Below are positions 36,961-62,753 of a DNA stretch of 64,000 nucleotides, in pieces (position 1 is the first letter of the stretch; the number at the start of each line of letters is the position of its first letter). Under the pieces are notes generated by a model. The model was not told the origin of the DNA, did no database searches, and was given only the letters and a program-made list of their open reading frames with translations. The stretch lies in the NCBI GenBank assembly GCA_021442155.1, contig CM038217.1, positions 151,845,834 to 151,909,833 on the forward strand, read 5' to 3'. The DNA is from Cymbidium sinense. Its lineage: Eukaryota > Streptophyta > Magnoliopsida > Asparagales > Orchidaceae. The position numbers and the translations under genes are program-made.

Positions 36961-39615
36961 TATTTAACTAATGGATGAAAAATTCTCTTTTCTACAAAAT
37001 AAAGAGATGCATTTATAATTCAATCAACAAATGAAACATTTAAATTCAAAATATATTTCTTTACATTCATCATCAAAGTATGCTAAGATTCACATTGCAT
37101 GTATAGGTATGCTTAGGATTATTCATATGCATGATATATATAGTGAAAAGAAATGAATGAATGTGTGTTATGTAATAGTAATCCATTCTAATTAATCTTA
37201 AGATGCCTTTCTTATTCAATAAGGTTATTTAGAGTGAACCTAAACTTAGGTTAATTAAAATACATAACAAGCCATTCATTAAATTAAATTAAGCTAATTA
37301 ACTTACCTTAAAATTGACTTAAAGAAAGGTAGGAATAAAAAAGAGATTCCCTCTCTTTCTTCTCTTTATAACACTTAGTTGCTAAGTGTAGCTATATGAA
37401 ACAAAAGAAAACACCATATAAAATCTTCAAATCAACTAAATCACTTAAAGAGAAATTAGCTCTCTATAAATTAAATCCCTCAAACTTAGCAAATCATAAC
37501 TCTAAAGCCTAGCTAGGACATAACACACAAACTTTAACACATGCACATTAGACTAAGTCACCATTTGTAGCTTTATGTTAGGGCAGTGCATGGTTTGATA
37601 AATGTTTAGTTTTGTAAGGTACCATTTTAGAATGGATGTTAGGGTGTATGTGTGTAGTCTGGATGTTAGGCCGATATTAGCCTAATCATATTTTATGTAG
37701 GGGGTTGTGCTTAAGGGGCCGCTGTAGTAAAAATATAATTGGTTTTTGCTGTGCAAGTTGCTTAGTCCCTAAGCATAGCCTAAGTTAGAACAGGTGGACT
37801 TGGTTACTCATATGTGAAGGTGCTAAGTCCAGACTAATCATATAACTACTTGGGTTGTATGGTGTGTTTAGCTAACACTTATTTTGCATGTGAAGCTAGA
37901 TTTACTTTCCTTCTCTTTTAATGTAATTATTGCATTAGGATTAGAATAAGTATTATGGATGATTAAGATGAACATTAGTTATAAGCAAGTCTTATACACC
38001 ATGTAAGGCTTCTGGAGTAAACAACATCCCAATCAAACCAAGAGAAATAAATAAATGGTGTAAATCAAAATGAAGAGATGAAAGATGAAGAGTAAAGATT
38101 GGAGGATGAAAAATAAAGACCCCCCCATAACACTTATCATTTTATAATTATAATTATTATTTTATTATACCTGGATGTATATAAGTAAACTCTATTCTTA
38201 TTTTTTTGATCACACCAACTCTTATTCTTTTGCAATAGCTTTTTAAAATTATTTGATATTTTGTTTAGCTTGTGCATTAGAAATAGCAAGTTTTTTCATA
38301 GTTTCTTTATGATTGGTGGTTGTGTGGCCTGGATGATTAGGCTCTTAGGATGGAAAAATAAAGTTTCTATCCCACTAACAACTCATAACTAAAATTTTAA
38401 AATAACTCATAACCTCACATAAAAGCCTAAAAATTAAATCAAGATAATAAAAATGTTTAGCAACCCCCTAAGTTGGATGATTGTATGTATAATATCATGC
38501 ATGCTATATTCTTCCACTCTTTTTAAGAGAGGGCTTCCATCTGTGCTAGAGAATAAAGGCTTAACCTATAAGATCCTTTGATGGAAAGACACCTCTTTCT
38601 CTTTTGATTTGGCCTATAACAAATTTCTCATGCATTTAGGCATGCAAAATCCTACGGCCTATGTCAAAATAAAAAGTCCAAAAGTCAAATAAAACTTAAC
38701 AAAATTTGCATTAGATTTAAGTCATTATTCATTCCCTTCATGATCTAGTCTCTTAGGGAGAGAGTTTAAGGACTTAGTTTCTCTTCTAAGTTAATAACAT
38801 CTTAACCATCTTGCAAAGCATATGACTTGCCTACATGGAATTAAAGCATAGAAGGAGTTAGGCACTTACTCAGTAATAAATTGTGGTTTACTCTCTCTTG
38901 TGGGGGTAAAGCATATACCCATTTTTGCCTTAGATTTATGTCATGTTTTGACCCTCACCAAAGCTCCCTAAATTTAGGATCTGAGGTTGCTGTTTCCTCA
39001 TGGAATTATAAGTCCTAGATTTCTAATAATAATTCAACTCAAATAAGTAAATCTCATCAAAATTCAAATACATAAAGCCCAACCATAGGATAGATTGGGG
39101 TGCTCACTAGGCTTCCTAGTATCATGAGCACTCCCTACTCATCTCTTTTGGTTTCAATAATATCTCTCCCCTTTTGATCTTTTCCATTTGATTTTCTAAA
39201 ATACAACCAATCCTTTGATAGTCCTATCTTTGAATTCTTTAGAGACAATAATCTCCTACTTTAATCAAGATTATTCTTAAGGGATTCACTTCGCCTAGGA
39301 TGTAATTAACTAGGGAGGCTTGCCTCCATAAAGAACTTAATGGACTAATTTAAATAAACCCTAATTTACTTTTCCATGTAAAGTAGGGAAAAAAATCTTT
39401 GGTATATTCGAAGACCAATCATTCCTTAGGGTTTTATTAGGTGATTAGGTCCATTATAGGGTAGTGACTACTATCTCTCGAGATAGTACACTATTCTTAA
39501 TGTAGTACTCGACTATCCTAATAAGTTTATCCTCAAATCTATGTGATGTCCCCTCAAAAAAAATGCACACAAACACCAATAATAATAATAATAATAATAA
39601 ACACCATAGATTTTT

Positions 39616-39633
39616 TAGCGACTCCATTAGGGA
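39616..39633 (+). promoter_or_regulatory. Primer binding site of element 1
   Basis: TAGCGACTCCATTAGGGA, 7 bp after the LTR end. It resembles the TGGCGACTC..GGGGA site I associate with Tat/Ogre elements, reported there as complementary to tRNA-Arg. Two G to A differences from that form recur in element 2. Confidence 0.6.
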
Positions 39634-40016
39634 TGGTTCCTCTTTCCATCTCTAGTAGATGATTATTGTCTCTAAGCATCGATAGTGGACTTGCATTTCA
39701 TGTGAGCCCGAGACTATCTTTCCTTCCATTTGCACTTATAATATTTCATTCTTAAGCGAAGTTAGCCAACATCCTTTAGGTTTTAGGACCTTACTCTGTG
39801 TAGGTCTTGAAACCCCTATTGGGTTCCCCAATAGGTGAGAATAGAATTTATCAATAAAAATGGAGATAATAAAAATTTAGAGCCTCCTCACCACTAACTT
39901 GGTGAGGCAAGGTTCATCATGAAATTTAAATAGAATAATTCCTTTCACAAAAAAGACACTTTCCAAAAGCATCTTTCAAGAAACTCACAAAATCACAAAA
40001 TCACAAAATCAAAACA
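39634..40016 (+). other. Leader between primer site and hairpin array, element 1
   Basis: No coding frame. It is conserved with 55,067-55,440 in element 2 (GATGGTTCCTCTCTCCATCT, TAGCATCGATAGTGGA-type words, GTTTTAGGACC). It contains a GT-rich CTTGGTGAGGCAAGG that could be a splice donor, a guess. Confidence 0.6.
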
Positions 40017-41500
40017 CCTCCATGATTGCTACATGGAGGCTCTTTTCAAAAGCAAATCATGCCATGTTTGATTCCCACTTAACATATCCAAATTTGTTAA
40101 GTGAGGATCTCTATTTGAATCAAACATAAAATTTGAATCTTGCTTAACAATTTCAATTTGTTAAGTGGGAGTCTTATTTTCAAAACATAAAAATTTGACT
40201 TTCACTTAACAATTTCAATTTGTTAAGTGGGGGTCTCATTTTCAAAACATAAAAATTTGACTTTCACTTAACAATTTTAATTTGTTAAGTGGGGGTCTCA
40301 TTTTTAAAACATAAAATTTGACTTTCACTTAATAATTTCAATTTGTTAAGTGAGGGTCTCATTTTCAAAATATAAATTTGACTTTCATTAAAATTTTAAT
40401 TTATTAAGTGGGGGTCTCATTTCCAAAACATAAATTTGACTTTCACTTAATAATTTTAATTTGTTAAGTGAGGGTCTCATTTTCAAAACATACACATGGG
40501 CCTTCACTTAGCATATCCAATATTACTAAGTAAGAGTCACATTTTCAAGGCATATTTTTGGCTCTACTTAACACATCAAATTTGCCAAGTAAGAATCACA
40601 TAATCATGCCATATTGGATTCTCACTTAACATACCAAATTTGTTAAGTGAAGATCCCATTCTCAAGTCATATCATGCTTTGATTTTCACTTAACACTCCA
40701 AATTGTTAAGTGGGAGTCTCATTTCAAAAATAAATAAATAATAATATCAAACACATTTAGTCTTCCACTTAACATACCAAATTTGAGAAGTGAGGGTCTC
40801 TTTTCTACACACATTTGATCCTTATTTTAACATACCAAATTTGTTAAATAAGGATCCAATTTTTCATATCAATCACACTTGAGCTTTCACTTGAGCTTTC
40901 ACTTAACATACCAAATTTGTTAAGTGAGAGTCTCATTTTCAAAGGAAAACATACATATCTCAAACACATTTGGGACTTTCACTTAACATACCAAATTTGT
41001 TAAATGGGGCTCCTATATCCAAAGAAAAGCAAATCTATCCCACAATCACATTTGGCTTTCACTTGACATATCAAATTTGTTAAGTGAAAGTCTCACCTTC
41101 AAGCACAAATCAAACACATGTGGCCTCTACTTAACATACCAAATTTGTTAAGTAAGAAGTTCCATTTTTCAAATCAAAATGTCACACATCCAAATCATTA
41201 CTTGCAAAAATATTTCAAACACATAATCACATCCTCTTCTTAGCATACCCAAATTTGCTAAGTAGAGGTTCTTTCAAACTATCCATATTTTCAAACAAGA
41301 AACATAAAATGCAAACAATCTCCAAAAAGAAAGAAATCTCCCCTCAAATTTTTGAGCCCTCCCAACCTACCTAAATTAGTTGAGTATGAGTTCTAATATA
41401 AAAAATCAAATGAAAAAAAAAACTCTCCTCCAAAACATCCAAATCTCTCCAATTAACCCCACTTAACATAATTGAATTGTTGAGTGTGGGTTCAAAACTC
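40017..41500 (+). repeat. Hairpin array in the leader of element 1, about 20 units
   Basis: Units of 58-85 bp, each with an inverted repeat of the form CACTTAACA-loop-TGTTAAGTG and often longer arms (GACT-TTCAC / GTGAGAGTC). Loops are mostly TACCAAAT or ATTTCAA. Starts of left arms lie near 40,017, 40,073, 40,139, 40,202, 40,266, 40,327, 40,385, 40,443, 40,505, 40,563, 40,623, 40,687, 40,766, 40,817, 40,898, 40,980, 41,056, 41,129, 41,235, 41,363 and 41,460. Pairing survives sequence change: CTTAGCA/TGCTAAG at 41,235; GATCCTTATTT..AAATAAGGATC at 40,817-40,856; TACTTAACA/TGTTAAGTA at 41,129. No coding sense. It ends 100 bp before the gag start. Confidence 0.9.
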
Positions 41501-41601
41501 CAAACATCTATTACTTTCATGAAATAAATATCAATGAAGAATCAGATACAAGTTATATTTCAACAAATGCGCATATTGATCAGTGATCTTTTGGTCTTTA
41601 C

Positions 41602-43150
41602 ATGGTCTCTCAGAAGTTTGTTTTCACCTTTCTGTTCGGGATGGATTTGACCCTGGATTAGGCCAGCCTCCCTTAGACTTACTCCACCCATATAGTATTC
41701 TTTTGGCCGAGGATTTGAGGGAGCCTGCATCACTTATGAGGGGGCAACCCTCAACACTGTTAGCCGGGATGAGGTGGCTGGGCAGAAGCCAGTCATTCAC
41801 ATCGACCTACCTTCTGACACTGAGTATCCTTCACTGAAGAGGATGGTGTTCGAGGTTCCGCCAGTCAATCTAGTACATACTAAGTCAATTGTTCCCACTG
41901 CCGCTCGGGTGCATGCTAGCACCTCCTCGTTGGTCCCCTCAGGGCAGGCTAGATAGCTCTCTAGCTTGAGGAGGATCAACCTCTTACCTTTCAGTGATAC
42001 ACCTCACAGTGGCACAAGACCCAAGATTAAGCGGCACCACGAGCATGCCGCCTAGGAGATGGATGTCACATCCCACATTGTAAAGGAGGTTTCTCCTCGT
42101 GAGGTTTCCACATTGCTGACTAGCAACCAGTTCCACCCCCTCTCAACATCAGACGAAGAGGAGGACTACCAGAGGATAGTTGCATTGCCTCCACCTCCTA
42201 CATACCATGAGGTTTCGGCTAGGGATAGGAGGAAGTCCTATGCCTGTCTATGGATGGTATTACGCAAGGTGGGTAGTGTACACGGATGTTCAGAGTTTGA
42301 TACATTATTTGGGAGTCATCATCCCAGAGTGTTACGGCACATTCATGTGAGCATCAAAGGCTTGAGTAGCGTCGATTGGTAGGGAGTGATAGAGGTTTTC
42401 CTCTGACCTCTCTCTAGTTGATTTCCCGATCATCGGGCCAAGGTGACAACATAGTGTTGATAGTACCACCGTGGGGAATGCGATGAGGTAGAGCCAATGT
42501 TGTCTCCACCACACCGATCCACTCTTCGTCCACCGTCACTAGTTCAGGTCCTGCCATCCACCATTCCTACGAAGGCATAAAAGATAATATCTAGGGAGAA
42601 GAAAGCCCCCTTGGTTATCCAGCTATGGCCAAAGGATCCCACTCTGACTGAGGTGATGATGAGTTCCCCTACTAGACCTCCTACTTCAATCTTGGTGAAG
42701 GAGTGGCAACCCCACAATGTCATGGTCGCACCACCACAACCACCACCACCACCACCACCATCAGAGATAGTGACAACAATAGCTGTAGAAGGTGAAGGGA
42801 TTATCACAGACCCCATGGTAGTGGATCTCCCCATGGGCTTCTCCACAAGCATGTCTCTTCCAGTCATGACCCTCCCGTGAGCCAAGCAGATAGTGAAATT
42901 AGTACATCTTGTCGAGCACAACCCCTTTATCGACAACACATATTTATACCAAAGACGACAGACCCTGATGAATATCTTAGCAAAGTACTTAGTAGAAAAG
43001 AGAGAACTTCTAGGAGTAATCAGTCAGATTGTGAGGAGGGAAAGGTCAACTTTGATCCAGATGAGGATGATCTTCTTGAGGATTCGATCAAAGTTCATAT
43101 GGTTGATACTAGGAGTTCTCTTCAGAGAGATCAATAGTGAAAGGTATTGA
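41602..43150 (+). pseudogene. Gag N-terminal region, element 1
   Basis: The start codon at 41,602 gives MVSQKFVFTF-x4-MDLTLD and then a TAG; element 2 has MVGSQKFVFTF at 57,355, so both share this start. Further blocks are AGQKPVIHIDLPSD (about 41,775), a Pro-rich segment with a run of prolines from CCACCA repeats (42,735-42,765), and VKEWQPHNVMV. The equivalents in element 2 are AGQKPIIRVDLPLD and MRKEWRPRSIMVI. The region is unusually long for a Gag head, about 600 codons before the core. Frames shift several times. Confidence 0.75.
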
Positions 43151-43469
43151 AGGAAGAGGATGACACCATCCATTCAACTCAAAGACCTCCACCAAGATAG
43201 GGATGATATTAACCAAATGGAGAAGAAGAAAGAGTTGATGGTGGTGTCGGATTGCACTCCTCCATACAATCTTCTCATAATAGCAGAAAGTTGCCACACA
43301 CTTTAGATCAGCCTAGATGCATTCCTGCAGAGGGAGATAATGGTAGTCTGCATAGGAAGGTGGTGGATAATATCTTCATGCATGAAAAAGATATTAAACA
43401 CATGGTGAAGCAACAGGTGAGGGTTGCATTGGCGCAAACCTAAGGTGGCTCATCTGTTCCAAAGGGTAG

Positions 43470-43995
43470 ACTCTAACTAAATGAATTTGATGGTGTCCAA
43501 TACCGTAAGGGCTTTGTGCCTCCATTCTTCAAAATTTTTGATGGCAGTGGGAATCTCTACGACATAGCACATTTCAGGGCAGGATGTTGCAATGCTGGTG
43601 GCAATGATGCACTCTTATTTGTCTTCTTCGTTAGTAGCTTGATAGGCATCACATTTGATTGGTATGTTGAACTACCCAGTAGTTAAGTGAAGACATTTGT
43701 TGAGTTGGAGCAGCTCTTTAATAAGAGATTTGTTGGAGCTCAGCAAAGGGTCACTGTGGGCGATCTCGTTGTAACTCAACCACACCCTGGTGAGTCCCTT
43801 ATTGATTACATTCTTAGATGGCATAATTTGAGTAAAATGTGAACCATAGCTATTTGAACAGCATGCCATTAAAATTCTACTCAAGAATATTCATGGCCAG
43901 GTTGCTTTCATGCTTAAAGGGTTCACCATTAAGATATTTGAGAAATTAATCAACAAGGCGGCTAGTCTGCCAAGAGAGGTCAAATAGTTACCTTT
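43470..43995 (+). pseudogene. Gag core (retrotransposon gag domain), element 1
   Basis: Readable as YRKGFVPPFFKIFDGSGN, IAHFRAGCCNAGGNDALL, GITFDWYVELPSS, a stop, VKTFVELEQLFNKRFVGAQ, then GESLIDYILRWHNLS and, after a frameshift, the complement of the HA-x-x-LLKNIHG and MLKGFTIKTFE blocks. These are the retrotransposon Gag signatures (FDG-x-GNP, FDWY, ELE-x-x-F-x-x-RF). The domain forms the capsid. It is dead: an internal TAG replaces the expected Asn-Gly/Gly before VKTF. Confidence 0.88.
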
Positions 43996-44182
43996 CTAAG
44001 ATTAATTAGCCAAGCCCAGAATATAGAAGGCATTTGAGAAAAAGCCAGGGGCAGTCACAGTAGTTGATAAGGGGAAGCAACCAGCCAGGGTTCAGTCAGA
44101 CAGACCTCGAAGCTTAACAGCCTCCTCTACCACCTCCTTTGCCACCACCTCGACCATCATATCAGCCACCTCAGTTATCACA

Positions 44183-44491
44183 ATGGCCTCCACCACTGCC
44201 TACTCAGTAATATCCCCATCCATAGCATTAGTAGCAATTCTCTATCTACCACTAAGTAACTATCACTTACCTATTTTTGCTGACAAATTGAATAAGCCTT
44301 ATTCATTCAAAAGGGAGGTAGTCAGGAAGATCTTGAAGAACCTATTAAAGAAGCCGATTTTTAGTTACCAAAGCCTAGAGGTGGAGGATGTGGGCAAGAG
44401 TCATGATCCAAACTTTTGCCCCAACCACCGTATGCTAGGACATGCCTTGAAAGATTGCTTTAACTTTAAGGATTGGCTTGAGCATAGCTAG
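44183..44491 (+). pseudogene. Gag C-terminus with CHHC knuckle, element 1
   Basis: ADKLNKPYSFKREVVRKILKN, then GKSHDPNFCPNHRMLGH, then ALKDCFNFKDWLE. The knuckle is Cys-x2-His-x4-His-x4-Cys, a His in place of the second Cys of the classical retroviral type, typical of this lineage. Element 1 keeps all four ligands. The stretch upstream (44,110-44,180) is Pro-rich. Confidence 0.85.
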
Positions 44492-44499
44492 AACTCAGG

Positions 44500-45560
44500 T
44501 GCCATTATCATCCCTAAGAAATACCTATTAGAATAACCCTCTAATTCTGTTAGGGTAATCCTTGGGGATACATGTGATCTTCTCAAGATAGAGAAAGGTT
44601 GGGATATCTCCTTATTTTGAACCTCCAAGAAAATCATCTCTAAGATCAGAAAGTTACCATTATAGGTGTCTGAAGCAGCTCAAACCTCAACTCTAAGGAA
44701 GGTTTGCAAGTTGCTAAGGATAACTTATGGGAGGTAGAAGCCCAGCAGTAGCAGCGATAGCTTCCACTTGCCCAGGATAGCACATTAGCGTAACCATCAA
44801 CCGAGTCTAGCACTCTACCACACATGCATACTGCTTTCAACCAACTCTTCTTAGTTGTATCGAGGGGGGCCAAATTCCTCACTTCGCTCACTTTACTTGA
44901 TTTCTACTCTGTACTTTCATCCAAATCTAAGAAATCAATGAAGAAGAAGACTGATTCTATTTACATTCTCTCTACTTTTGATGATCTTGATGATTTCATT
45001 CCTATAGAGAGCTCTCCAAGCACTAATAATTATTATAATTTTGATCCATTCCTTTCTGATTTTGAAATGGATTACCCATTCCTAAATCACTTGGGTTCAC
45101 CCATTGAGATAAACTTAGAGTCATCTGACTGATGATCCTATAGGAGAAGCTATAAGTAAACTCAATGAACATGTAGAACTTTCCATTAAATCATCTCATG
45201 AAGTCACTAAAAGTCAACCTTCGTAGTAGCAAAGTTCTACCTCCTAGGGTAGCACCTCAGGATAAGGGTAAACAAGTCATTGGTTCCAATGATCAAGAGG
45301 TCCCTCCACAGGATGCTCCGCCTATGGATATGCTTGTGGAGGACCAACACAGGGTTGACTATAATGTCCTCGCTCACCTAAGAAAGTTGTCTGCTAAACT
45401 AAGCATATATGACGCCCTTGTCTTATCCAAAGAGAGGAGGGAATCATTAATCAAAGCCCTTCTTGATCTAGAAATATGCTTAGTTCAATTGACCGCTACT
45501 AGAGAAGAGGCATGTTTTTCAAGAGAAGCCCATGGAGTTACATTCATCGATGAAGACCTT
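44500..45560 (+). pseudogene. Gag-protease linker, element 1
   Basis: Blocks: SVRVILGDT and GWDIS (44,545-44,620); LTLLDFYSVLSSKSKKSMKKK (44,885-); LRSSKVLPPRVA, DKGKQVIGSND, DYNVLAHLRKLSAKLSIYDAL (45,200-45,420); TFIDEDLLW (45,540). All occur in the same order in element 2, and partly in the leftmost element. The linker has no enzymatic function that I know of. Confidence 0.75.
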
Positions 45561-45579
45561 CTTTGGGACAATAGAGCAT

Positions 45580-45965
45580 AACCGTCCCCTTTACATCACA
45601 GTTGACATGGGTAGATTCAGACTCTCCAGGATGTTAGTTGATCCAGGTGCATCAGTGAACATTATGAGTCTAAAAATCCTTAACTACTTGAGGATCAACA
45701 TCTCTGAACTCTGAGGAGATTGTATTATGTTGAGAGGATTCAATGAACAAGGCGAGAGGGCTTTAGGCTCTATAGTGTTACCACTAGAGATAGATGATTA
45801 GAAGACAGAAGCCAAGTTCTACATAATTGATTCAGATATGTCCTTCACTACCTTTCTCGGTAGGCCTTGGATACATGGCCTACCGAGGTTTCATCATCTT
45901 TGCACCAGTGCATCAAATTCAGAAGAGGTGGAATTGAGTATTATGTCAAAGGAGACTTGAAGCTA
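45580..45965 (+). pseudogene. Aspartic protease, element 1, active site altered
   Basis: RPLYITVDMGRFRLSRML, then VDPGASVNIM, a stop after RINISEL, then MLRGFNEQGERALGSIVLPL and TTFLGRPWIHG. The family active site is D-S/T-G-A; here the Ser is Pro, while element 2 keeps VDSGAS. Along with stops this copy cannot process Gag-Pol. Confidence 0.85.
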
Positions 45966-47083
45966 TTCTCAATTAGAGAGTTTGAGATTTATGAAGATGC
46001 AACTTACTATCTTTCTCCAAATCAAAAAGTCGATTCTAGTGAACTTGGTGATCAAAAGTAAAAGAAACAAAAAATGAAAAGGAAATTGAAAAATAAAAAG
46101 AAAAGAAAAAAAAGAAAAGAGAAAAAAAGTACAAGTGAGCGAGAATTAGACGAGGAAGAGGTAGAGCCAGATGTTAGATTCCACCCACAGTTCATTCCTC
46201 CATATGAACACATGGGTAGGATGACTTGACTTTCACCAGGTAGAGGAAGAGGCAAGTTCAGAGGTAGTTCTATAGGTGGAAGACCTCCTGATGGTGGCCA
46301 ATTGGTAGGAGTTATGTTCCAGCTCATAGGAGTACCCCACTATCCACAGAGACTTAGAGTCCAATTCAGAGGATGAGTCTCATGTGATTAGCATGCCAAC
46401 CAACCCCTCTCAACATGTCCCTTTGGAGGTGACATTCGAGCCAAATAGTGGTGAAGACTAGGCCTCTAAGCAAAGTAAGAATGTATCCAAATCATCATTA
46501 TGTAGAGCAGTCAGATAGTAGTTGAGAACTTTAGCTCTAACCTCACTTTCTTCTCAAAAAGTTGAAGGTTTGGATGTTAAGGAGGCCCCCAAGTCATCCA
46601 CAAATGATCGTCAAAGAGGTTTTTATTGGGAGCATCATCCTCAAGTCAAGAAGCTGATATAGAACTTGAGGATGATTCATATAAAGATTTATTACAGCTA
46701 CCTTTTGATTAGTATTCGCCTTATGTTATTAACTTAGCAAAGAAGGGATTAGTCCCACATACTTGATCTAAACACAAGTCAGACTACTTTGAAAATATGG
46801 GAAAACCAAAGCAGACACTCTTAATCAAGATCAAGACTAAGATTCGACATAGTGGGTCCAATCGCGATGACGACCACTGCTTAGTCATCACCACTCATTT
46901 GGGGTCTGATAGATTCTTCTCAAATCATGTTAACTCTTACAAGGAGGCATGTTTAGAAACTTCAGATGACCCAAATGAGTCTAAAGTCAAAGATACACCA
47001 CCAGAGTTTAAAGAAGAAATCAAATCAACCAGTAATGAACTCAAAGAAATCAACTTGGGAACGAAAGAAGATCCACGCCCGAC
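45966..47083 (+). pseudogene. Protease-RT linker of element 1, cut by element 2
   Basis: Recognisable against element 2: EIYEDATYYLSPNQ (about 45,990), a Lys-rich run (46,060-46,130), then a frame open from 46,797 with KTKIRHSGSN, HLGSDRFFSNHVNSYKEA and LKEINLGTKEDPRPT. In Tat elements NLG-T-x-E-x-P-R-P lies shortly before the reverse transcriptase. The frame is cut at 47,083 by TGTTGACC. The five bases before are CCGAC, which would be the target duplication of element 2. Confidence 0.8.
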
Positions 47084-47527
47084 TGTTGACCTCATTTTTA
47101 GAATGAGCTCTCAACACCTCCTTCTTAGACATATGATTCTCTTAGACTTTAAGAGTTCCTTAGTCTTAAGACACATCTAGCGATTAGGTGAACACTCTCT
47201 CCTAGCCCTAGAAGACTTAGAAGAGTTAGCCATAGGAATAGGTCATGCCCTAGGGGTGTTAGGAAAATCTCCTACCCTTTAGCTTAAACCATTCCTCACT
47301 TTCCTTCTTTCAAGTCGAACCCCAAATCAATTCTATTTGATTTTATCAAACTCCAAATCAACTCCATGATTCAATTCCTTAATTCAATTCCATGATTGAA
47401 AGCCATGATCCAAATCCATCAAAAATCCCTAAGTCAAAATTTCCTAAGTCCTTAACCCTTTCTTAAGGACTTAGTCACAATCATGAGCTAAATCTATTCA
47501 AATCTTTGAAATTTTCTCATGATCCAT

Positions 47528-48090
47528 TTATATTCTCATTTATATTCACATATATAAATGAAATATAAATTAAAATCCATCCAATCAAATTCAAAATTCC
47601 AAAATAATTCATGAAAACTTTCTAAATTCCTTTAAATTTCCATTAAAGGACTTAGCCAAAATCAACTCCATATCTTGATCAAACCTACTCAAACTTGGGA
47701 TTTTCTCAAAATCAATTTATATCCTTGTTTATATTATCATATATAAATGAAATATAAATATAACTCAATTCAATCCAACTCAAAAATTAAATTCCAAATT
47801 TAAAATGCTTGAAATTCCCTTAAATCCTTTAATTTTTCATTAATGGATTTAACCTAAACCTTGATCAAACCACTTCAGACAAATGGAATTTTCTCAAATC
47901 AATTTATATTCTCATATTTAAATGAAATATAAATATACATCAATCAAATCTAAGTCAAAAATTAAATTTCAAATAAAAAATTCAATTAAATCCTTTAAAT
48001 CCCCTTTAATGGATTTGACTTCAATTCATGATTAAACTCTTTCAAACCTTTGAAATTTTCTCATGAGCAATTTATATTCTCATTTATATT
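47528..48090 (+). repeat. ~180-bp tandem repeats near the LTR start, element 2
   Basis: Cores TTTATATTC-ACATATATAAATGAAATATAAA near 47,528, 47,716, 47,895 and 48,075 (spacing about 180-188 bp). Each core can fold on itself (TTTATATT / AATATAAA). Confidence 0.75.
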
Positions 48091-48439
48091 CACATATATA
48101 AATAAAATATAAATTCAAACAATAAAAACCATCTTCAAATATCAAACTCAAATCAAATCAAAATCAAATCTAAGCCTTTCAAGTCAAAACCTTGAACTTA
48201 GTCAAATCCTTTAAAATCAAGCCAAATCTTTGATTTTATCTCATGGTTCAATCAAACCTACAATCATGAGTCCATATATAAATCCAAACCTTAATCACTC
48301 AATCAAAGCCTAAATCAAAAATCAAATCCAAAACTCCATCAAACTCTTCCTTTGAATATGAAATTTTCAAATGGATCAAAATCCATTTGACTTCAAACCA
48401 CTTGTAAATGGATTTATATTTTGATCATAAGTCAATATA

Positions 48440-49330
48440 CAAGATCAGTCAACTTCAAATCAAGTTTTGACCAAGCCATTTGACCCACTTAGGCTCACTT
48501 GACCCAAAGTGACCTAAAGTACCCTTATGAGCCAACTTTTGATCCTAATCAAATTGGATTGAACCAAACTTATATATCCCTGTCATCATGAGCAACAATC
48601 ATCATGGGATGATCAATCAATCAAATTGGGTCAAACCAAGTCAAACCTAAGGGTTGACCAAGTCAACACTTAACATAAAATGAAACGTAACATAGCCAAA
48701 TTCCACCATAGGCCAAATTGATTGAAACCATTGATCCAAGTTCACTCATGACCTATGTTTGAACTTGACCAAGTTAACCTTTGAGCCTAACATAGCCCAT
48801 TTGGCCCACTTGACCCATTTAGACCTAAAGGGTTAAAATGTGTTAAAACTTGATTTAAGCCAAATTAATTGAAACCAATGGGTCAAGTCCATCCCAAATC
48901 ACTTGTGGAACTTGACCAAAGCCTCCAACCAACTAGATCCAACCCATTCGACCTTAGACCCAGCATGACCTAAAGGGGTCATGTTGAGCCAAAATTGAAC
49001 TTAACCCAAATTGATTGGAAATAAAGATACCAATCCACTTCATATGACCAACCAAACTTAAACCTACTGACCTAACCCAAATAGGTCAAGTTCAAATAGG
49101 TCAACTTGACCCATTTGACCTAAATGAGTCATATGAGCCAAAACCAATATATACCAAATTGAACCAAACCAAAGGCACCAAAATATTTCAAATGGTCATA
49201 TGAACTTGACCCAACCCTTGGTTTGACCCAATTTGTCCAATTGGTCAACTTGACCCAAGTTGACCCATTTTGACCTAAATGAGTCAGCATGAGCCAAACT
49301 CTATCAAATGGATTCCAAATCCATTGAAAC
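48440..49330 (+). repeat. TTGACC/GGTCAA-rich array, element 2 LTR
   Basis: For example GGTCAACTTGACCCATTTGACC near 49,100 and GGTCAACTTGACCCAAGTTGACCC near 49,250 (shown in pieces of GGTCAA and TTGACC). Same LTR position as in the other copies. Confidence 0.8.
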
Positions 49331-52300
49331 TTGGCCCAACCTATTTTCTCAACATACCAAACATACCCAAATTGAAAAAATAATAAAATGACCATTATAC
49401 CCCTAGGCCATAGAACAAATTTTGGCCAGCCCATAAGTATTATAGTCATGCACTCATCATAAATATTTGGGGTTCTCCTCAAATCTTAAGGGGACCTAGT
49501 GATGAGTGGTGTACCCAACCCAATGGGTTTGGGTCAACCCATTTGTCCCATGGACCAAACCCGACCCATAGGCATGAAATTGAAAATTCAAACTCCCCCC
49601 AAACCTCAATTGGATGCACATGGGAGGTTGGCAATCCACTCCTTGGGTCAAACTGACCATGTGCACACTCCTAATTGATCAAAAAGTCCTCAACCTATGA
49701 TCAATTAGATCAAAATGGCATGTCCATTGTCGGCCGTCCGATCCTTCAAGGGGGAGATATACTCCCCCTAATTTACTAAAATTTTCACTCACTCATGCTC
49801 GATTGAGGTCTTGGAAGATTTAGCAAACATCACAGAGCTTTCCCAAGGCTCCTAGGAGAGATTTGGAATTCATCTTTCATGGTTTTTAAATAGTAAAAAT
49901 AGGGGAGCTCACCTTGATTTTCAACTTCTTCCACACTTCATTTTCTTCCAATTCCTTTTGCATACTTAGGTGACCAGGTCGAGCTCACCTAAGTTGATTC
50001 CTAAGTTCTAAAGGCAAGGGAGGATTGAATTATATCAAAGCTGAACTCAAGCTAAGGAGGAGGAGACCCATAAGAAGATCTGTTCCATCTCCTGTGCTCC
50101 AAACTTTAGCAAGGCTTTGTCTCAACCAGACAAAGCTTCTGCATGGGAATCAAGGGCTGGTGCTGATCTCTGATGAGGTTAGTGAATTTCTAATCACTTA
50201 GGCTAAAAGGTGTTGGTCTTTTTATGAAGTGGATTTTCATCTCATAGGATCTTAGCCGTTGGATGGGCCGCTTTGGTCCTTTAGATGGTGTAGGTTGAGT
50301 CTTGATTGAATTCATGAAGGATCGGGCTTGGATCTTCTCTTGGATTGTGAGCGGCTCACATTCCTCCTCAGGGAAGAACTCAGCCCATCTCAGCATTCCA
50401 TCCGCACATTTTTAGATGGATGCTTGAGATTTTTGCACATTTTAATCTTTATCGATTTAAAAGCTGGTGTATCCCCATCGTCGATCAAAATGGCTGGGTA
50501 AATATATGCGCGCCGCCAGCTTCCCCAATGTGATAACTTAAGTAATGGTTCTCGATGCGCGTAAGACCATCATACATCGTGCCGTGCGTGATATTAAATG
50601 CGGATTAGTTATTTAACTAATTAATTCCTAATTAAACCCTATAGCTTCTGAAAATCATAACTATTTCAAGAAAAATTAGAAAAATAAAAGGAAAAATTCT
50701 TTGGATAGATAATTTCTCCTAAAATATTTTTAAATTATTTTCAATGAATTTTGATCTCCCTTTCTATGAATTTGGGTTTCTTTTAAAATGGTAATTAGCT
50801 AATTAATTTCTAATTAAGTCACCAATGGATCTCAAATTTCTAGGGTTCATTTTAGGGGATGACCTCTGCCTCCCCTAATTTTCTTAAGATTTATTGAGGC
50901 TTTAATTTGGGAGAATTGCTAACTCATACCCTAATTACCCCTTCATGTAATTAAGGGTAATTAAGATGCAATTAGTGGATTTTCCCTATGTTTAAGTTGG
51001 ATTAAGTTTAGATCCAGTGAATAAGGGTTTTTGGAATACTTTTGGGGTATTTCTCCCAAGCTATTCCCTAAACCCCCTTTTCTTTCCTTAATCCCTTTCT
51101 TAATTAAGAGTTAATCCATTAATTATCCTTTTAAATAATTTTCAAAATTTTTAAAAAATCTCTAATTAATCTACCTTGGGTAGATACTTTGGTGTTCAAT
51201 AGCCTAAGCCTAATTAGGGAAAATAAAATCCCTTTCATAAGTGTGAAAGGGGGTTTTAAAAGTACTTAAGCAAAACCCCTTAGCTTAATTAACTTTAATT
51301 GTGAGCCAAATTTCATTGGGCCTTTTCATTACTAGGTGCATTACAAATTTACATACCTTGTGGGTTTTATGTCATCTCATTGGCTCATACTTAGTTAATT
51401 TTTCTAAGGTGGTGTACGTAAGGGTTAATTAAATCACTTTATGCATACCTTAACCTAATCAACACTTAAAAATGGATTTAATTATCTGAAAGTTAAACCA
51501 AAATATAAAACACATGTGGGAATGATTTAGGAATAGTAAACTCATCTCACCCTTTTAAAATTAAATCAAACTTTAAACAAACAAAAATCATTTTGAAATT
51601 CACTTTGATTTATTCTAAGTTTTCTTATTCTTTAAGAATGTCTTTAGAATTAAGTAAAGTGAGTTTGTTCATGTGATTACATTGCTTTTGATCTTTCCCA
51701 ACATGTTAAATTGTATGCAATATGACTTATGCAACCATGATTTCATGTTTTCAAAGTTTTAAAATGAAATTGTTTACTTTATGTAAAATGTGCATGTGTT
51801 GGCTAAAGTAAAATATGAGTGGCTATTATCACTACTAAATCTAAAGTATTTTCAAAATCTATAAATGAAGCATAAAATCTGAAAGTGTCTTATTCATATA
51901 TTAATTATTAGTTTGCATGTTATGAGTTATAAAGTCATGTGTAATGTAGCCTTTCCTTCCTCTCTTATGTTAGCATAGTTTTGAATATCAGTTAATAAGA
52001 TGTAGGGTTCATTTGAAAAGAACCCAACACTTTCTTAATTCTAAACCCTATTCATCCCTATACTCTGACTTAAGATGGATTTCCTATACTTGCATGAATA
52101 AATTGCCTAAACCAAAATAAAATCATTAAGTAAACTTTTGCATATTCTTTTTCCACTTTATTTTTTTTTATATGCATGTCAGTACTTAAGGAAAATGGTA
52201 TATTAGTCTGGACAACCCCGAGATTGCAAGGGTTTAAGTAACCCTAAGTAGGTCTTGTACCTTACACCTCTAGTTAACAATGACACCGTACTCACTTATG

Positions 52301-55048
52301 CTTTTCCTACTTTCATGCATGTATGTGAAATTTTGGAGAAAGAAAACCCTTTTCTACTTAAGAAAATTCATGCATCTAAATCTTCCAAATTTTCTTAAAT
52401 GGATTATTTAGCATGCATCATAAAGGGTGTTAACTACTTCATTTGCATGTATAGATATACTTAGGGTCCATCCATATGCATGTTATATATGTTGGGAAAG
52501 AATTAAAATAATGTGTGTTATGTGAATTTTGATTCATTTTGCTTAATCTTAAAATGCCTTTCTTTTTGGATAAGTTTGATTAGAGTTAATATAAACTTAG
52601 GATTAATTAAAATATCTAATTAAAACATTCACCTAAATGAAACTAAAATGTGAACTTACCTTAAATATTACTTAAGGATTAGGGAAGGAAAGAGAAGTCC
52701 TCTTCTCTTTCCCTCTCTTCATAACTTAGTAATTAATTATAGGTTTCACTTAAACCAAACTAAGACATGAAATAAAAATAACCCAAAGTGACTAAACAAC
52801 TTAAATGAAACCCTCTTCTAAGTTGAACATGCCTTTCATAATTAGAAAATTCATTCATAACCTAAGCATGCCACACAAACCTCCAAAACACACATATTAA
52901 CCTAAGTCACCACTTCTAGCTTTAGGTTAGGTCGGTGCATGGCTTGATGTTATGTTTTTTTTTTTGATGAATGTTTTAGACTGGATGTTAGAGTGTATGC
53001 TCATAGAATAAATGGTAGGAAGTTCTTAGTCTAACTATTCTTTTTTGTAGGGGATTGTGCCAAAGGGGCGCTACCATAAATAAAAATATAAATGCTTCTT
53101 GCTTGTAGGTGCTTATACCCCTTTACATAATCCATAGGCTAGGTGAACTTAGTCACCCATGTGTGGGGTGATAAGTCCAATATACATTTGGGATTTGTGT
53201 GATTTGACTAACCTTTATCTTGCAGGTGTTAGTTAGATTTATGCTTTTCCCTTTTCATGTAAAAATTTGTATATTTAGGTTTTGGAATGATTTGTTATTG
53301 TGGGTTTAAATGAACATTGGTCATAAAATTCCATCCTATGTACCATGTGAATCCTCAGAGCATCAACCATTCAACCATCCAAAGGAGGAAAGAAAGAAGA
53401 AAAGAAAGAAAGATGAAAGAAGAAAGAAGAATAAAGCTTGAAGACCCCATAGCAACAAATTCCTTTGCTTAATTTATAATTCAATTCATTTGTAATCTGG
53501 GTTGTATAAGGGTAGAGCTCGGCTACCCACATTTGATATTTTAGGTTTGTGCGGTGGTGCCCGACCACAAATGGCCATTTATTCATTTTGTGCTAGCTTT
53601 ATAAATTGATTGATGTTTGTTTAAGTTATGCATTAAGTGACATGCTTTTCTTAGTTTCTTCCTTGCTTTATTTATGGCCTGGATGTGCTTAGACTCTTTA
53701 GGGAAAAATAAATCTTTTACCCAACTTAAAAATTCAAATTAAAACTAAACAACTCATAACCTTATCTAAAGCTTAGGATTAAAATCAAGATAAAATAATT
53801 AGAAATCCCTTAGCTGGATGAGTTCTTCTCTTTATAATATCATGCACAACAACATCTTATTTCACTATTGATTGAGGCTTCCATCTTTGCCAAAGATCCC
53901 AGCTTGACCTATGAGGTCCTTGGTGGAAACTCACCTCCTAAACTTCATACTGATTTTGGCCAATAATCTATTTTCTCATGCATTGGTCATAAAAGTCCTA
54001 TTATCCCGAGTCAAATTGATTATCCAAAAATAAAATAAATTAAAATTTGAAATGCATTAGATTTAGGTCATTGAAGCATGTCCCTTTACATGATCTAGTC
54101 TCTTTAGGGAGTGAGTCTAAGGACTTAGTCTCTTTCTAAATAAAAATAGTCTAACTATCTTGCATAAGTATAAAGACTTGCCTACATATATTTAAAATTG
54201 TAGGAGGAGTTAGTTGGAATCCCCCCAGGCTGTTGTAAGTCCAAGTTATCAGGTGGTTTGTCCTCTCTTGTGAGGGCAAACTAATTACCCATTTTCACCT
54301 TAGATTTAGGTTGTGCTTTTGGCCCCTCAAGCTCCCTAGATTTAAGTTCTGAGGTTGCTTTTCCCCTTTGTGGGCCATAAGCATAATTCCTCACCTCTTA
54401 GGTATTTCCTTAATCTTGTGTTAAGGAATCGTAAGTCCTAAACTTGTAATGAAAAATACAACTCAAACAAACTAAATCAATTTCTAAAATGTAAAGCCCA
54501 ATTTTTGAATAGTTTGAGATGCTCGCTAGGTTTCTTAGCATCGTGAGCATCTCCTACTTATTCCCATTTTTGCTTTGATAACTCTCTCTTTTGATCAATC
54601 CCATTTGATCTTCAAAAATACAAACCAATCGATTGATAGTCCTTCCTATTGAAATCTTCAGAGACAATGATCATTTACCTTAATCGAGAGTTTTCCTAAA
54701 GGATCCTGTCCTTTTGGGATGTAATTAACTATGGGGTGCCGTAGAACTTAACAGGATTTAAAATAAATCTACTTTACTTTTCATGTAAAGTAGGGAAGAA
54801 TCTCTACATATGGACCCATCATCCTTAGGAGTCCTTATTGAGGTGATTAGTTCCATTAAAGGGTAGTGACTTATGTCTTTCGAGATAGTACATTATACCT
54901 TGATATGATCTGATCACTTGAATAAGTACATCTGTGGATCTGCGTGACATCTTACCAAGACAAATTTTTGTAAGGGTATCCTCTTTCTTTTCTCCCAACA
55001 GATTTGAAAGGCGACTCCCTTATAAGAATTTTTCACCACAGATTTTTC

Positions 55049-55066
55049 TAGCGACTCTACTAGGGA
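55049..55066 (+). promoter_or_regulatory. Primer binding site of element 2
   Basis: TAGCGACTCTACTAGGGA. It differs from element 1's site at two internal positions but shares its TAG start and TAGGGA end. Confidence 0.6.
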
Positions 55067-55439
55067 TGGTTCCTCTCTCCATCTTTGGTAAATGATCATT
55101 GTCTTTGAATTTCAATAGTGGATTTATACTTTGGTATGAATCCAAGACTATCCTTCTTTCCGTTGGCACTTAGCTCATTTCATTCTTGAGTTGAGTTAGC
55201 TAACATCTTTAGGTTTTAGGATCGCATTCCTTATTGGTCTTAAAACCCTGTTGGTTCCTCCAATGGGTAAAATGAAAAGATCTAAAATAAAAGAAATCCT
55301 TTTAAGACTTTCTCCTTATCATCCTCATGATAAGGAAAGGTTCATCCTAAAATAATAAATCTTTTATAAAGAACTTTGCTTTTCAAAAGCTCCTCTTCCA
55401 AAAATTCACTTAATAAAATATTTTGCACAAAAAGTTTTC

Positions 55440-57240
55440 ACCCTCATTTAACAACTCATAATTGTTACATGAAGGGATTTTCAAAATAAAACTAATAAAT
55501 TTTTAAAAGCATAAATGAATATCTTCTTTCAATTCAATTTGATGAAGGTTTCATTTTCAAAATAAAATAAACAATCATGTCTTTCTAAAATCACAATCAT
55601 AATCATCAAACATTTCAAAGCACATATGGATCTTTCTATTCAATACATTCATACTTATTGAATGGGAAGTTCATTTGTAAACAAAATCAAAATTTTCAAA
55701 AAAAAAAGCACATGTGAACATCTTCATTTAACATACTTAGGTTATTTAAATGAGGATTTCACCCCCAACTAAAAAAATAAAAATATCATTTAAGAAATCT
55801 CACTCAAGCATATCCCAAATATGTTTTAAGTTAGGATTCCTCTCTTTCAAAAAGCAACAATCACACACAAAAATTAAAATATCTTATTTCAAAAATAAAA
55901 TGGATCTCCATTCTACATACTTAAATTTGCTGAATGTAGGTCCTCTTTTCAAAACATCAAAATCAAACAATCATATTTGCAGAAAATTTCAAAATCCATT
56001 TGGAACTTCATTTAACAAACCCAAATTTGTTAAGTAAAGTTTCTAAATTCAAAAAATTTTGAAACACATTTGGAATTTCATTTAGCATAATCAAATTTGT
56101 TAAATGAAGTTTCCAAATCAAAACATCAAAATCAACAATCACTTTTGGAACTTCATTTAACATACACAAATTTGTTAAGTGAAGTCTTCAAATTTAAAAT
56201 CCAACAAAAATTTTCAAACATACATTTTGGAACTTCATTTAACATACACAACTTTGTTAAGTAAGGTTTCCAAAATCAAAATCGAAATTTTTTTTCAAAA
56301 ATCCTAAACACATGTTGGAACTTCATGTAACATACACAAATTTGTTAAGGTTTCCAAAATAAAAATCCAAAATTTTCAAAATTTTCAAAACATATTTTGG
56401 AACTTCACCTAGCATACTCAAATTTTCTAAGTTTCCAAACTCAAAACAAAAATTTCCCACACACCTTTGGAACTTCTTCCCTTAGCATACCAAATTTGCT
56501 ATGGAAAAGTTTCCATTTTCAAAATCAAAATGAAATCAAAACTTTAAACACACCATTTGGAATTTCATTTATCATACTTATATTTGCTAAGTGAAATTTC
56601 CATTTCACAAAACCAAGTTGAATTTCATCTTTAGCATACCAAATTTGCCAAAGTTGAAACTCCACTTTCAAAAAATTTTCAAAAAAAACAAAACACTTAG
56701 AATCCCTTTAGCATACCAAATTTGCTAAAGGATCCTACCCCAAAATCAAAATTTTCCAAACAAATGAAACACTTAGGATTTTCTTAGCATACCTAAATTT
56801 TCTAAGAATCCTATTTTTCAAAATCAAACAAAATACACTTGGATTCTTCACTAAGCATACCTAAATTTGCTAAGGAAGAATTCCAATTTTTTTTTCCAAA
56901 ATCAAAACAAAACAAAAATTTTCCAAAAGAAACAATCACTTTCACTTTACTTAACATACTGAAATTTGCTAAGTAAAAATTACAAAACATTCAAAGAACA
57001 CAAAATCATTTTGACCCTTACTTTAACATACCCAAATTTGTTAAAGGAAAGGGTCCTCAAATAAAAAAAATTCAAAATCAAAAAAAAATGAACCTATGGA
57101 AGCATCTTATCAAAATCTTGAATCCATATTTCATACTCAAATTTGTTGAAGTTTGGATTCATACCTCTTTCAATCAATCTTTCAAAATTCATTTGAACCC
57201 CACTTAACACTTCCAAGTTGTTGGATGTGGGTTCAAATTC
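55440..57240 (+). repeat. Hairpin array in the leader of element 2, about 20 units
   Basis: Left arms near 55,446, 55,645, 55,726, 55,800, 55,908, 56,005, 56,072, 56,147, 56,231, 56,318, 56,400, 56,474, 56,560, 56,626, 56,704, 56,780, 56,847, 56,948, 57,013, 57,117 and 57,197. Most have arms of the type GGAACTTCATTTAACA / TGTTAAGTGAAGTTTCC, not the GACTTTCAC type of element 1. Variants keep pairing: CCTTTAGCA/TGCTAAAGG (56,705-56,731), GACCCTT..CTTTAACA / TGTTAAAG..AAGGGTC (57,013-), TTCAATA/TATTGAA (55,645-). One short open frame (55,750-56,037) is low-complexity and meaningless. Confidence 0.9.
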
Positions 57241-57354
57241 TCAAAATTCAAAAATTCAAAATCTATAGAGATAAAAAATTGATGCAAGTTCATTTCTCAT
57301 TTGCAAATTTCTTTCAGTCAGTGCAGTTTTCAATTGTTAGTTTCAATTAATGCA

Positions 57355-59060
57355 ATGGTAGGATCACAAAAATTTGTGTTCACCTTCCCTAGCGGCATGG
57401 ACCTAGCCTTGGACCAGGCTAACTTTTCATTTGGATCATACCCATTTGATCCACTTTGTCCATGGCTTTGAGGGAGCCAAGATCACTTATGAGGGCATTC
57501 CCCTCACAATAGTCAGCAGGAAGAGGGTGGCTGGGCAGAAGCCGATCATCAGGGTAGACTTACCCTTGGACTCAGAGATTTCCTCACTGAAGAGGAAAGT
57601 TGTGGCAGTACCACAACCTTTAATAGTTTTAGTACCTGGTTATATCAGTGGCGGTCATCCTGAGTTGCCCACATTGCCAGTGCCTAGCACCTCATCACCC
57701 CTAAGGTAGCTCCCCTAATTTTTGGATTGCCTCCCCACATTTGATGGGTCTAGCACTCCTCTCATCCTACTTTTCAATAAGAATTGTATGGTCAAATGGT
57801 TTCCGGATAGCTAGAAGTTAGAGGTAGGTGTCAACCATGGTCTCTATGATCACATCACCACTGGTTATGGAGAACCAGTTCCATCCTCTCTCAGGATCAG
57901 ATAGAGAGGATGTCAAGATTCAATCATCACCTCCTCCAGTGGTGCACGTGCTTTGAGTAGGAGGTGTCATCGACCTTGCTCATTCTTGCCGGTGAGCATA
58001 CGACTCTTGAGTCTGCAGTTTGATTTAATTTGTTATCTCCGGTAGGGAGGATCGTGAGAGGGCCGTGAGGCCCATACATCATACATCACCAGCAGGGAGT
58101 GATAGAGGTTCATCCATCAGTCAACTTCTTTGGTCGACATTCCTGGCACACTACTATCGATCCATCGATAGTATCCTTACGAGAACCAACCATCACAGGA
58201 GGGCAGCTTCTATACATAGAGAGTCGGCGGTGTTTCCACCCCACCACTCACATCCGTCATCGCCAGTGTAGAGTCCAGCATCACCTATTCCAGCCAAGGC
58301 CATGAAGGCCGCATCTAGGGAGAAATGTACCCCGTTGGTGATCCAGCTACGACCAAGAGATCCCTCTCATCCTACACCACCCATTATGGTAGGGCCGAGC
58401 TCTCCTACTCGACCTTCTGCCCTAGTGGTGATGCGAAAAGAGTGGCGACCCCGGAGCATCATGGTCATTCCTTCACCAACTCCACCCATTCAGCCGGATG
58501 CGAAGATGGTGACTACTATTATGGATATTCCGGATGATGATAGTAGTAGCGGTGAGAGGATCATCCGATTGTTACCCTTACTAGCATTAGTCGAGATTAT
58601 CATTCTATAGTCACGATTGACTCTCCGGTGGGTGTCGGTGCCTCTCGATGGTGATCACACCTCAACTTTTTTGTACCATAGTTAGATCAATCCTTAGATG
58701 AGATAGTTGCACACTATTTTATGGAGATAATTAAATCTTAGGGTATGCATGGTCCAATGAAGAAAGAGTCAGCTTGATCCCAATGAAGATGACTTGATGG
58801 GGGGATTCAGCTGGCATACGCATGGTTGAGACTAGAGGTTCTCTTATTAGAGACCAATAGGCTATGGAAGGAGATGAGGTTGATCAAGACACACAAATCA
58901 ATCACCTCGATTAAGCGAGAAAGATGAAGATTGATAGGATGGCAGACTTTGTTGGTGAGTGTCGTCTTGAGAAGCAAGCCCTTCCAGTTCATCCTAGCAT
59001 AGTGATGTGTCGAAAACTAGTGCATGTCTTAGATCCAGTTAAGACTCCCATTGAGCAAGG
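57355..59060 (+). pseudogene. Gag N-terminal region, element 2
   Basis: Starts MVGSQKFVFTF, then MDLALDQA. Further blocks: GAKITYEGIPLTIVSRKRVAGQKPIIRVDLPLD (57,490-57,570, in parts), a Ser/Thr/Pro-rich stretch, then MRKEWRPRSIMVIPSPTPP (58,430-58,490) and VTTIMDIPDDDSSS. Frames shift several times. The role of this long head is unknown. Confidence 0.75.
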
Positions 59061-61470: not shown

Positions 61471-62753
61471 GAGAATAAGATCATTCCATCCTCCTTTCAT
61501 TGTGCATCAAGTTCAAAAGATGGAAATTGAGTACCATTAAGGATGAAAAGCCATTCTCAGTGAGAGAGGTTGAGATTTATGAAGATGTGACCTATTATCT
61601 TCCTCAAAACCCTTTCTGAACTTGGACAAAATTTCAAAACAAATGAAAAGAAAATGAAACAAAAGAAATGATAAAAGAAAAAGAAAAGAAAAAGAAAAGT
61701 CCAAGTGAGCAAGAAAGGGGAATTGAAGAAGAAGTGGATCTGCATATCACATTCCACACACAGTTCATTCCATCATATAGAAATATTGGTAGGATGGATC
61801 AACCTCCACCGTAGAGGCGAGAAATAGAAAGTCTGTGGAAGACCCCTAGTTGGCCTTGGAATAAATGTTGTGTTAGTTCATAGGAGTACCCCACTATTCA
61901 CATGGACTTGGAATCCCTCGAGGATGAGTCTAATGTGATTAGTATACCCGACCAACCTCTCTGGGTTCCATTAGTGGTGACTTTTGATCCAGCCAAAGAC
62001 GAAGACCAGGCCTCCAAGAAAAGTAAAGTATTCAAATCTAGTTTATGTGAAACTATGAGGCAGTTGGGAACCTTAGCTCTTACCTCACTTACATCTCAGA
62101 AAGTTGAAGGTTTGATAGTTAAGGGGGTCTCTAAGTCTTCTAGTGATACAAAATAGAATAGATTCTTTTTAGGTTCATCATCCTCAAGTTCAGAGCAAGA
62201 TGTAGGACTTGAGGAAGATACTTTTAAAGAATTAATGAAATTACCTTTTGACTTTTATTCGCCTTGTGTTCAAAATCTTGTGTAGAAAGGTTTAGTTCCT
62301 CACACTTGGTCTAAGTACAGGTCAGAATATTTTTAAAAATTATGAAATAATACAGATAGGGAAGCATAATCAAGAGTAGGACTAGGATTCAGCACAGTGG
62401 ATCCAGTCGATGATGAAGATTTTTTCCTAGTTATTACCAACCATTTGGAATCTGATAGGTTCTTCTCACACATCCCCAACTCTCATAAGAATGTGTGTTT
62501 AGAAACTTCAAATGATCCGATGATCTCCAAGTCAAAGAGGCACTACCAGAATTTGAAGAGAAGATTCATTCAATAATTGACAAGCTAAAAAAAATCAACC
62601 TCGGGAAGAAAATCTTACATTTATCGGTTCATTGAATGAAGGAGAAACTTAGTTAGGCTATTGTGAGTTTAAAGATTGCTTCGCATGGAGTTATGAAGAA
62701 ATGTTATCTCAGCATGCATTATTGAACAACAGGTCATTTCTAAAGTCAAGAAA
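61471..62753 (+). pseudogene. Protease-RT linker, element 2
   Basis: Blocks: EDVTYYLPQNP, a Lys-rich run (61,630-61,710), FHTQFIP, MDLESLEDESNVISIPDQPLW (61,902-), AKDEDQASKKSKVFKSSLCETMRQL, then TLALTSLTSQKVEGL. Near 62,590 INLGEEN, then in pieces FIGSLNEGE, CFAWSYEEM. The last is the usual start of the RT domain (F-A-W-S/T-Y-E-x-M). Confidence 0.7.

Follow-up and report, generated by a model that had tools for sequence, protein, structure and literature searches.

A tandem array of covarying hairpins in the leader of LTR retrotransposons of Cymbidium sinense

The leader of an LTR retrotransposon (element 1) in the 64,000-nucleotide stretch of DNA analysed here, which we call the window and which is part of contig C4 of the 3.5-Gb genome, is filled from 40,017 to 41,492 by an array of hairpins that lies between a primer-site-like sequence and a gag-like open reading frame. 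A second element in the window (element 2) carries an array with the same type of loop, and the leaders of both elements are structured, non-coding and fixed in orientation between the primer-site-like sequence and gag. Covariation in the stems of these arrays survives phylogenetic control, and the best reading is that secondary structure has been under selection during replication. The features on which the analysis rests are as follows.

39,617-39,637, + strand: degenerate primer-binding-site-like sequence 3' of the 5' LTR (from the sequence, and from a repeat common to element 2 at 55,044)
40,017-40,039, + strand: first hairpin, CCTCCATG/CATGGAGG, with strong variation among copies (finder, marking by eye and copy alignment)
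40,070-40,109, + strand: hairpin 2 (marking by eye and score)
40,128-40,482, + strand: five strong tandem hairpins with a period of ~61 nt, and a decayed unit near 40,392
40,502-40,792, + strand: hairpins at 40,502, 40,565, 40,613, 40,687 and 40,766 (marking by eye and score)
40,813-40,860, + strand: hairpin with a long stem of wholly different sequence, GATCCTTATTT/AAATAAGGATC (marking and 40-row alignment)
40,892-41,268, + strand: hairpins at 40,892, 40,980, 41,056, 41,128 and 41,233 (marking and 40-row alignment)
41,363-41,382, + strand: weak hairpin (marking by eye and score)
41,455-41,492, + strand: final hairpin 5' of the first gene, with a stem like that of element 2 and a loop unlike it
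41,602-41,658, + strand: start of the gag-like open reading frame, MVSQKFVFTF..., first ATG at 41,602 (gag-start matching)
44,027-44,491, + strand: gag-like open piece of element 1 with a C-x2-H-x4-H-x4-C motif
55,441-57,238, + strand: hairpin array of element 2, with the same loop type and mostly different stems
57,355-57,468, + strand: start of the gag-like open reading frame of element 2, MVGSQKFVFTF... (gag-start matching)

A sequence-only reading of the window had described an array of about 20 hairpins in the element 1 leader, and our analysis confirmed it. All 20 places marked by eye between 40,017 and 41,492 were inverted repeats, with scores from 4 to 15, and the units near 40,392 and 41,363 were weak. 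A strand-neutral hairpin finder, which counted Watson-Crick matches only and was run without prior marking, returned 17 hairpins with scores of at least 8 in this leader, some of which join arms of adjacent units; 60 dinucleotide shuffles averaged 6.7 such hairpins and reached 11 at most. The element 2 array gave 22 finder hairpins, compared to a shuffle mean of 11.1 and maximum of 15. Both arrays are built from long stems, loops mostly of 7-10 nt and G-poor linkers (8.8% and 1.9% G), and the hairpin centres lie 57-122 nt apart rather than 58-85 as first claimed; one 118-nt spacing spans a skipped decayed unit. Part of the element 1 array is a tandem repeat with a period of ~61 nt, and each of the five tandem hairpins has three U-G pairs in the window copy.

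The individual stems that the reading had singled out for joint changes in their arms were found in place at 41,233-41,268, 41,128-41,154 and 40,817-40,856. In the long stem at 40,817, positions 40,822/40,851 are C-A in 29 of 40 rows and T-A in the window copy. Two G-U wobbles had also been proposed near 41,056: that at 41,055/41,091 is family-wide (33 of 40 rows), and that at 41,065/41,081 is confined to the window copy (1 of 40 rows has GT and 36 have AT).

Elements 1 and 2 have coding pieces in common at ~70-84% identity, and blastn at 1e-10 found no match between the last 900 nt of their two arrays. A TAGCGACTCCATTAGGGATGG-type primer-site-like sequence is present in both elements; that at 39,617-39,637 may resemble a tRNA-Arg site. 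The gag-like open piece at 44,027-44,491 had no match in Pfam, and an open piece of element 2 (62,697-63,230) contains an RVT_1 reverse transcriptase domain. The stem of the gag-adjacent hairpin is largely kept across families (41,455-41,492, 57,191-57,238, and, in oriented coordinates, 2,097-2,144 of locus L080 and 1,755-1,802 of locus L090), and its loop differs from those of other units, being CTTYCAAGN in three of the four instances.

Arrays of this kind are abundant in the genome. The core pattern CTTARCATACCNAAATTTGYTAAG occurred at 21,687 exact places genome-wide, and its reversed control at none. One hundred listed core places, taken from one end of one contig, fell into 67 arrays, which by rough extrapolation corresponds to ~14,500 arrays. 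We examined 40 loci of the element 1 family, 20 of the element 2 family and 30 from the pattern search (20 arrays); L001 and L041, which are the window itself, were dropped before alignment, and the window row was used in their stead. These three sets yielded a gag start in 36 of 40, 20 of 20 and 22 of 30 loci, and the array lay 5' of it on the same strand in 74 of the 78 matches (36/36, 16/20 and 22/22). The remaining four, all from the element 2 family, had a loose core match, on the same strand, that coincided with the gag start or lay past it. Of the 90 loci, 27 (15, 11 and 1) had a primer-site-like sequence, most loci stopping short of that region, and it lay upstream of the first core in 14, 11 and 1 of them. 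These loci were found through the array, so how many elements are without one cannot be read from them. In some copies (G000:C4:98320260, C8:156588918 and C13:85776903), parts of the leader were matched twice, which suggests that arrays have grown or shrunk through duplication of units.

The loop is the most uniform part of the unit. With the finder blind to loop sequence, 307 hairpins with scores of at least 10 were found in 20 arrays, compared to 66 in one shuffle of each, and loops of 9-10 nt accounted for 196 of the 307 and 11 of the 66. The 160 loops of 10 nt had the consensus UACYYAAAUU, with at least 96% of one base at 7 of the 10 positions; position 3 was C in 133 and A in 25, position 4 was C or T in 154, and position 5 was C in 113 and T in 43. 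This uniformity is partly a matter of selection, because the loci were picked for one exact core each. In most units, the AAAUU of the loop and the closing U form a self-complementary hexamer, a possible kissing site that would be present many times per RNA.

Several results support the proposal of the sequence-only reading that the stems have been under selection. First, only the loop and the closing pairs served to anchor the units, which leaves pairs from the third outward free of selection for pairing, and pair 3 was nonetheless paired in 91%, 92% and 88% of units in the three sets, compared to 74%, 50% and 50% when arms were dealt randomly. Second, between 5 and 9 of 13 pairs, according to the criterion used, covaried beyond a tree-aware null. 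For this comparison, 661 units were reduced to 286 at 88% identity, the tree was built from the same 50 flanking columns as were tested, and 150 simulations of independent columns were run. The Watson-Crick excess reached z values of 7.4, 7.7 and 5.6 at pairs 3, 8 and 13, z was at least 2.9 in 9 of 13 pairs, and five pairs (3, 7, 8, 9 and 13) were above all 150 simulations; among 49 slid-pair controls, two reached z 2.9 and two were above all simulations. Pairs 10, 11, 14 and 15 neither reached z 2.9 nor exceeded all simulations, and at these pairs the ungapped register is doubtful because of bulges. Third, 50 mutually divergent units had 77 cells with both sides changed, compared to 39.8 expected, a number that none of 500 shuffles equalled, and cells were paired in 74.7%, compared to 68.2% when shuffled and 35-48% when slid. 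RNAalifold called no consensus pairs on the gapped alignment of these 50 units, in which two rows were badly placed, and the named structure was counted on the alignment after that null result. Finally, stems of other families often pair perfectly and have entirely different sequences.

These results weigh against the view that the leader is a neutral tandem repeat whose pairing is the relic of one ancestral palindromic unit. The ~61-nt period in part of the array is what such an origin would give, as is the lack of visible extra conservation of stems over linkers within a family (0.954 vs 0.943). A relic of this kind would not account for cross-family covariation above the tree null, for stems of entirely different sequence that still pair, or for the conserved loop, and we disfavour it as very improbable.

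Within the element 1 family, copies differ mainly by changes that look like decay after insertion. In 40 copies, linker transitions found in at least 4 copies amounted to 0.33 per C and 0.35 per G, and to 0.06-0.07 per A or T. Stem changes common to at least 4 copies comprised 22 G-U and 19 A-C mismatches, and private changes comprised 68 and 62. In the distinct-unit half of the leader, conservation was 0.954 in stems, 0.961 in loops and 0.943 in linkers, and the 40 copies had 458 single changes, 16 paired doubles and 11 broken doubles, with ~9 doubles expected. Over the whole leader the copies had 1,102 single changes, and the doubles comprised 83 paired, 83 broken and 9 wobble, with ~31 expected; the excess is partly due to the alignment of tandem units and to sub-lineages. 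Within-family covariation was set aside as a test, because copies differ mainly by these decay-like C-to-T and G-to-A changes.

The family copies thus lose pairing after insertion, with no preference for wobbles, which argues that the stems are not kept by palindrome repair in the chromosome. Gene conversion of that kind had been offered as the alternative to selection, and 458 unrepaired singles against 16 paired doubles disfavour it. As pairing is little restored in the chromosome, it must be kept in the replicating lineage. A copying process could act there by quasi-palindrome correction, in which a nascent cDNA would fold back on itself so that one arm is copied from the other, with no selection on stems. 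Such a process predicts mirrored changes without wobble bias, as observed, and would fit both the perfect long stems and the excess of doubles over independence in the whole leader, although the tandem part is hard to align. It is harder to reconcile with mismatches that recur at fixed places, U-G at pair 7 and C-A at pair 9, in many units and families or with so few paired doubles against so many singles in the well-aligned half, and it leaves the conserved loop unexplained; we give it little credence.

The sense strand folded far better relative to its shuffles than the antisense strand (local-fold z of -13.8 and -16.5 vs -6.8 and -6.0 in elements 1 and 2), a difference owed mostly to the poor folding of the shuffled sense sequence; z ranged from -0.8 to -9.8 in six other parts of the window. 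Absolute fold energies were similar between strands, that of the element 2 antisense strand being the lower (-340.7 vs -313.3). Over pairs 3-9 of the anchored units, G-U and A-C mismatches numbered ~251 and ~255 (totals computed from fractions), a frequent U-G at pair 7 being offset by a C-A that is common at pair 9 in element 2 units. Majority-state mismatches were 22 G-U to 2 A-C in the element 1 family, where many are tandem copies, and 12 to 10 in the element 2 family. Stem energies calculated with a neutral loop favoured sense over antisense in 116:126, 110:133 and 107:65 units. Wobble asymmetry as proof of a sense RNA was dropped, given the non-independence of tandem units and the 12:10 ratio in the element 2 family. 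A count by eye at pair 3 among the 100 listed core places gave 7 G-U and 1 A-C and was not used as evidence.

Strand-neutral mismatch classes and good folding of both strands would also be expected if the stems acted as DNA or single-stranded cDNA, for example as a cruciform, in transcription control or at a cDNA step. Sireviruses, which are also plant LTR retrotransposons, have repeated palindromes in their non-coding parts to which a regulatory role at the DNA level is given: most of the motifs have a fixed CGG-CCG signature, and they lie beside env and in the LTR and are interpreted as activator sites on DNA (PMC2829016). Both CGG and CCG are absent from 40,017-41,500 and 55,420-57,250. In the arrays described here, stem sequence is free while pairing is kept, unlike a protein site on duplex DNA, and inserted copies lose pairing that goes largely unrepaired. 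Action as DNA or cDNA is accordingly a small probability in our estimate, and RNA is the more plausible acting form.

One high-copy family keeps the array and lacks a detectable gag start. Three loci found through the array (L061, L078 and L081) have both the array and the next stretch in common, and none had a gag-start match. A purine tract follows the array after ~0.7-1.1 kb in this family, compared to ~4.5 kb in elements 1 and 2, weak reverse transcriptase remnants lie further on (L091, a single copy read), and a 525-nt stretch downstream of L061 matches 47,084-47,597 of the window at 69%. A 791-base query from the stretch that follows the array in this family matched all 40 of the candidates scored, out of 1,465, these being the query itself and others at 88-92% identity. 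In five copies picked from the 40 blind to the array, all five had kept it, with 8 or 9 cores each on the right strand just 5' of the matched stretch. A/G-rich tracts occupy a homologous place in elements 1 and 2 (46,054-46,129 and 61,635-61,699), and tracts like them come after the array in the family with no gag start.

Retention of the array by this family bears on translation control, in which the hairpins and G-poor, A/C-rich linkers would give internal initiation or shunting past upstream ATGs, or would form an intron removed from the gag mRNA. Plain scanning is unlikely, because 19 upstream ATGs (39,640-41,560) and 26 (55,070-57,350) precede the gag starts of elements 1 and 2, and gag may be translated from a spliced mRNA or by internal initiation. 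ATGs were not clearly depleted in these stretches (19 vs ~27 expected and 26 vs ~27 expected). The low G content of the linkers is in keeping with such control, whereas a family that keeps the array with no gag start to serve speaks against it, and we regard translation control as unlikely.

As judged from sequence, the leader may be a cis-acting structural domain of a replication intermediate, most likely the packaged genomic RNA, a reading that we prefer with slightly less than even confidence. Counted against it are the parity of G-U and A-C mismatches, the mixed stem energies, the lower antisense fold energy in element 2, the lack of consensus pairs from RNAalifold, the many upstream ATGs and the within-family conservation of stems, which is barely above that of linkers. 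Such a domain is probably a multivalent packaging or dimerisation domain of the genomic RNA, a role that we favour because of the position of the array, the conservation of the loop, the zinc-knuckle-like motif in the gag-like piece and the retention of the array without a gag start. A string of ~15-20 similar stem-loops on G-poor linkers, in which stem sequence would be free to change provided that pairing was kept, would offer one ligand of 9-10 nt, UACYYAAAUU, in most loops. Many loops could act jointly, either as docking sites for a zinc-knuckle-like Gag or through weak kissing between two genomes, and this joint action would serve to select the RNA, to pair it or to condense it. The partner would be Gag or a second RNA, and the outcome packaging or dimerisation. 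It is possible, though somewhat doubtful, that the ~20-copy string of loops selects genomes by avidity, for Gag or through kissing, rather than as one packaging site, that this is how a gypsy-type element packs or condenses its RNA, and that the gag-less derivative rides along.

The packaging and dimerisation leaders of retroviruses and retrotransposons (psi and DIS; BARE1/BARE2) occupy a like position and have a few distinct stem-loops; the arrays have 15-20 copies of one module. The HIV-1 DIS has a 9-nt loop with a 6-nt palindrome and is comparable to the array loops. The retention of the array by a family with no gag start parallels BARE2, a parasite that makes no Gag and yet retains its signals for packaging and dimerisation (PMC3735527). 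Satellite tobacco necrosis virus 1 also has several short stem-loops with a common loop motif: PMC6475782 describes five near the 5' end with an AxxA motif and a proposed role in coat-protein binding, which overlap the start of the coat-protein gene and for which in vivo tests were unsupportive of sequence-specific packaging. Among non-chromoviruses, tandem repeats have been reported in long non-coding parts of very large elements, with tRNA-Arg among the primers (PMC6317226). Tandem repeats in non-coding parts and the RVT_1 domain of element 2 give the present elements a likeness to the Tat/Ogre-like Ty3/gypsy elements of plants, to which they may belong. Retand has family-specific arrays that sit after pol and before the 3' LTR (PMC11963269); the present arrays differ in lying between the primer site and gag and in consisting of covarying hairpins. 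In 39,000-58,000 a search of Rfam gave six weak matches, each far below its gathering score, and in the open-licence literature we found no account of such a covarying hairpin array between primer site and gag.

The repeated, covarying stem-loop is present in one genome in thousands of naturally varying versions, all at one defined place, and these variants, together with the family that keeps the array with no gag start, make its role testable by probing, binding and packaging assays. If the preferred reading is true, some leader tandem repeats would be working RNA modules and not debris.

Elsewhere in the window, an AT-rich block after the open reading frames of element 1 (47,350-49,500) has repeats ~180 nt apart and palindromic motifs, and its 48,000-49,483 part folds far better than shuffles, with both strands alike (z -9.8 and -9.3).
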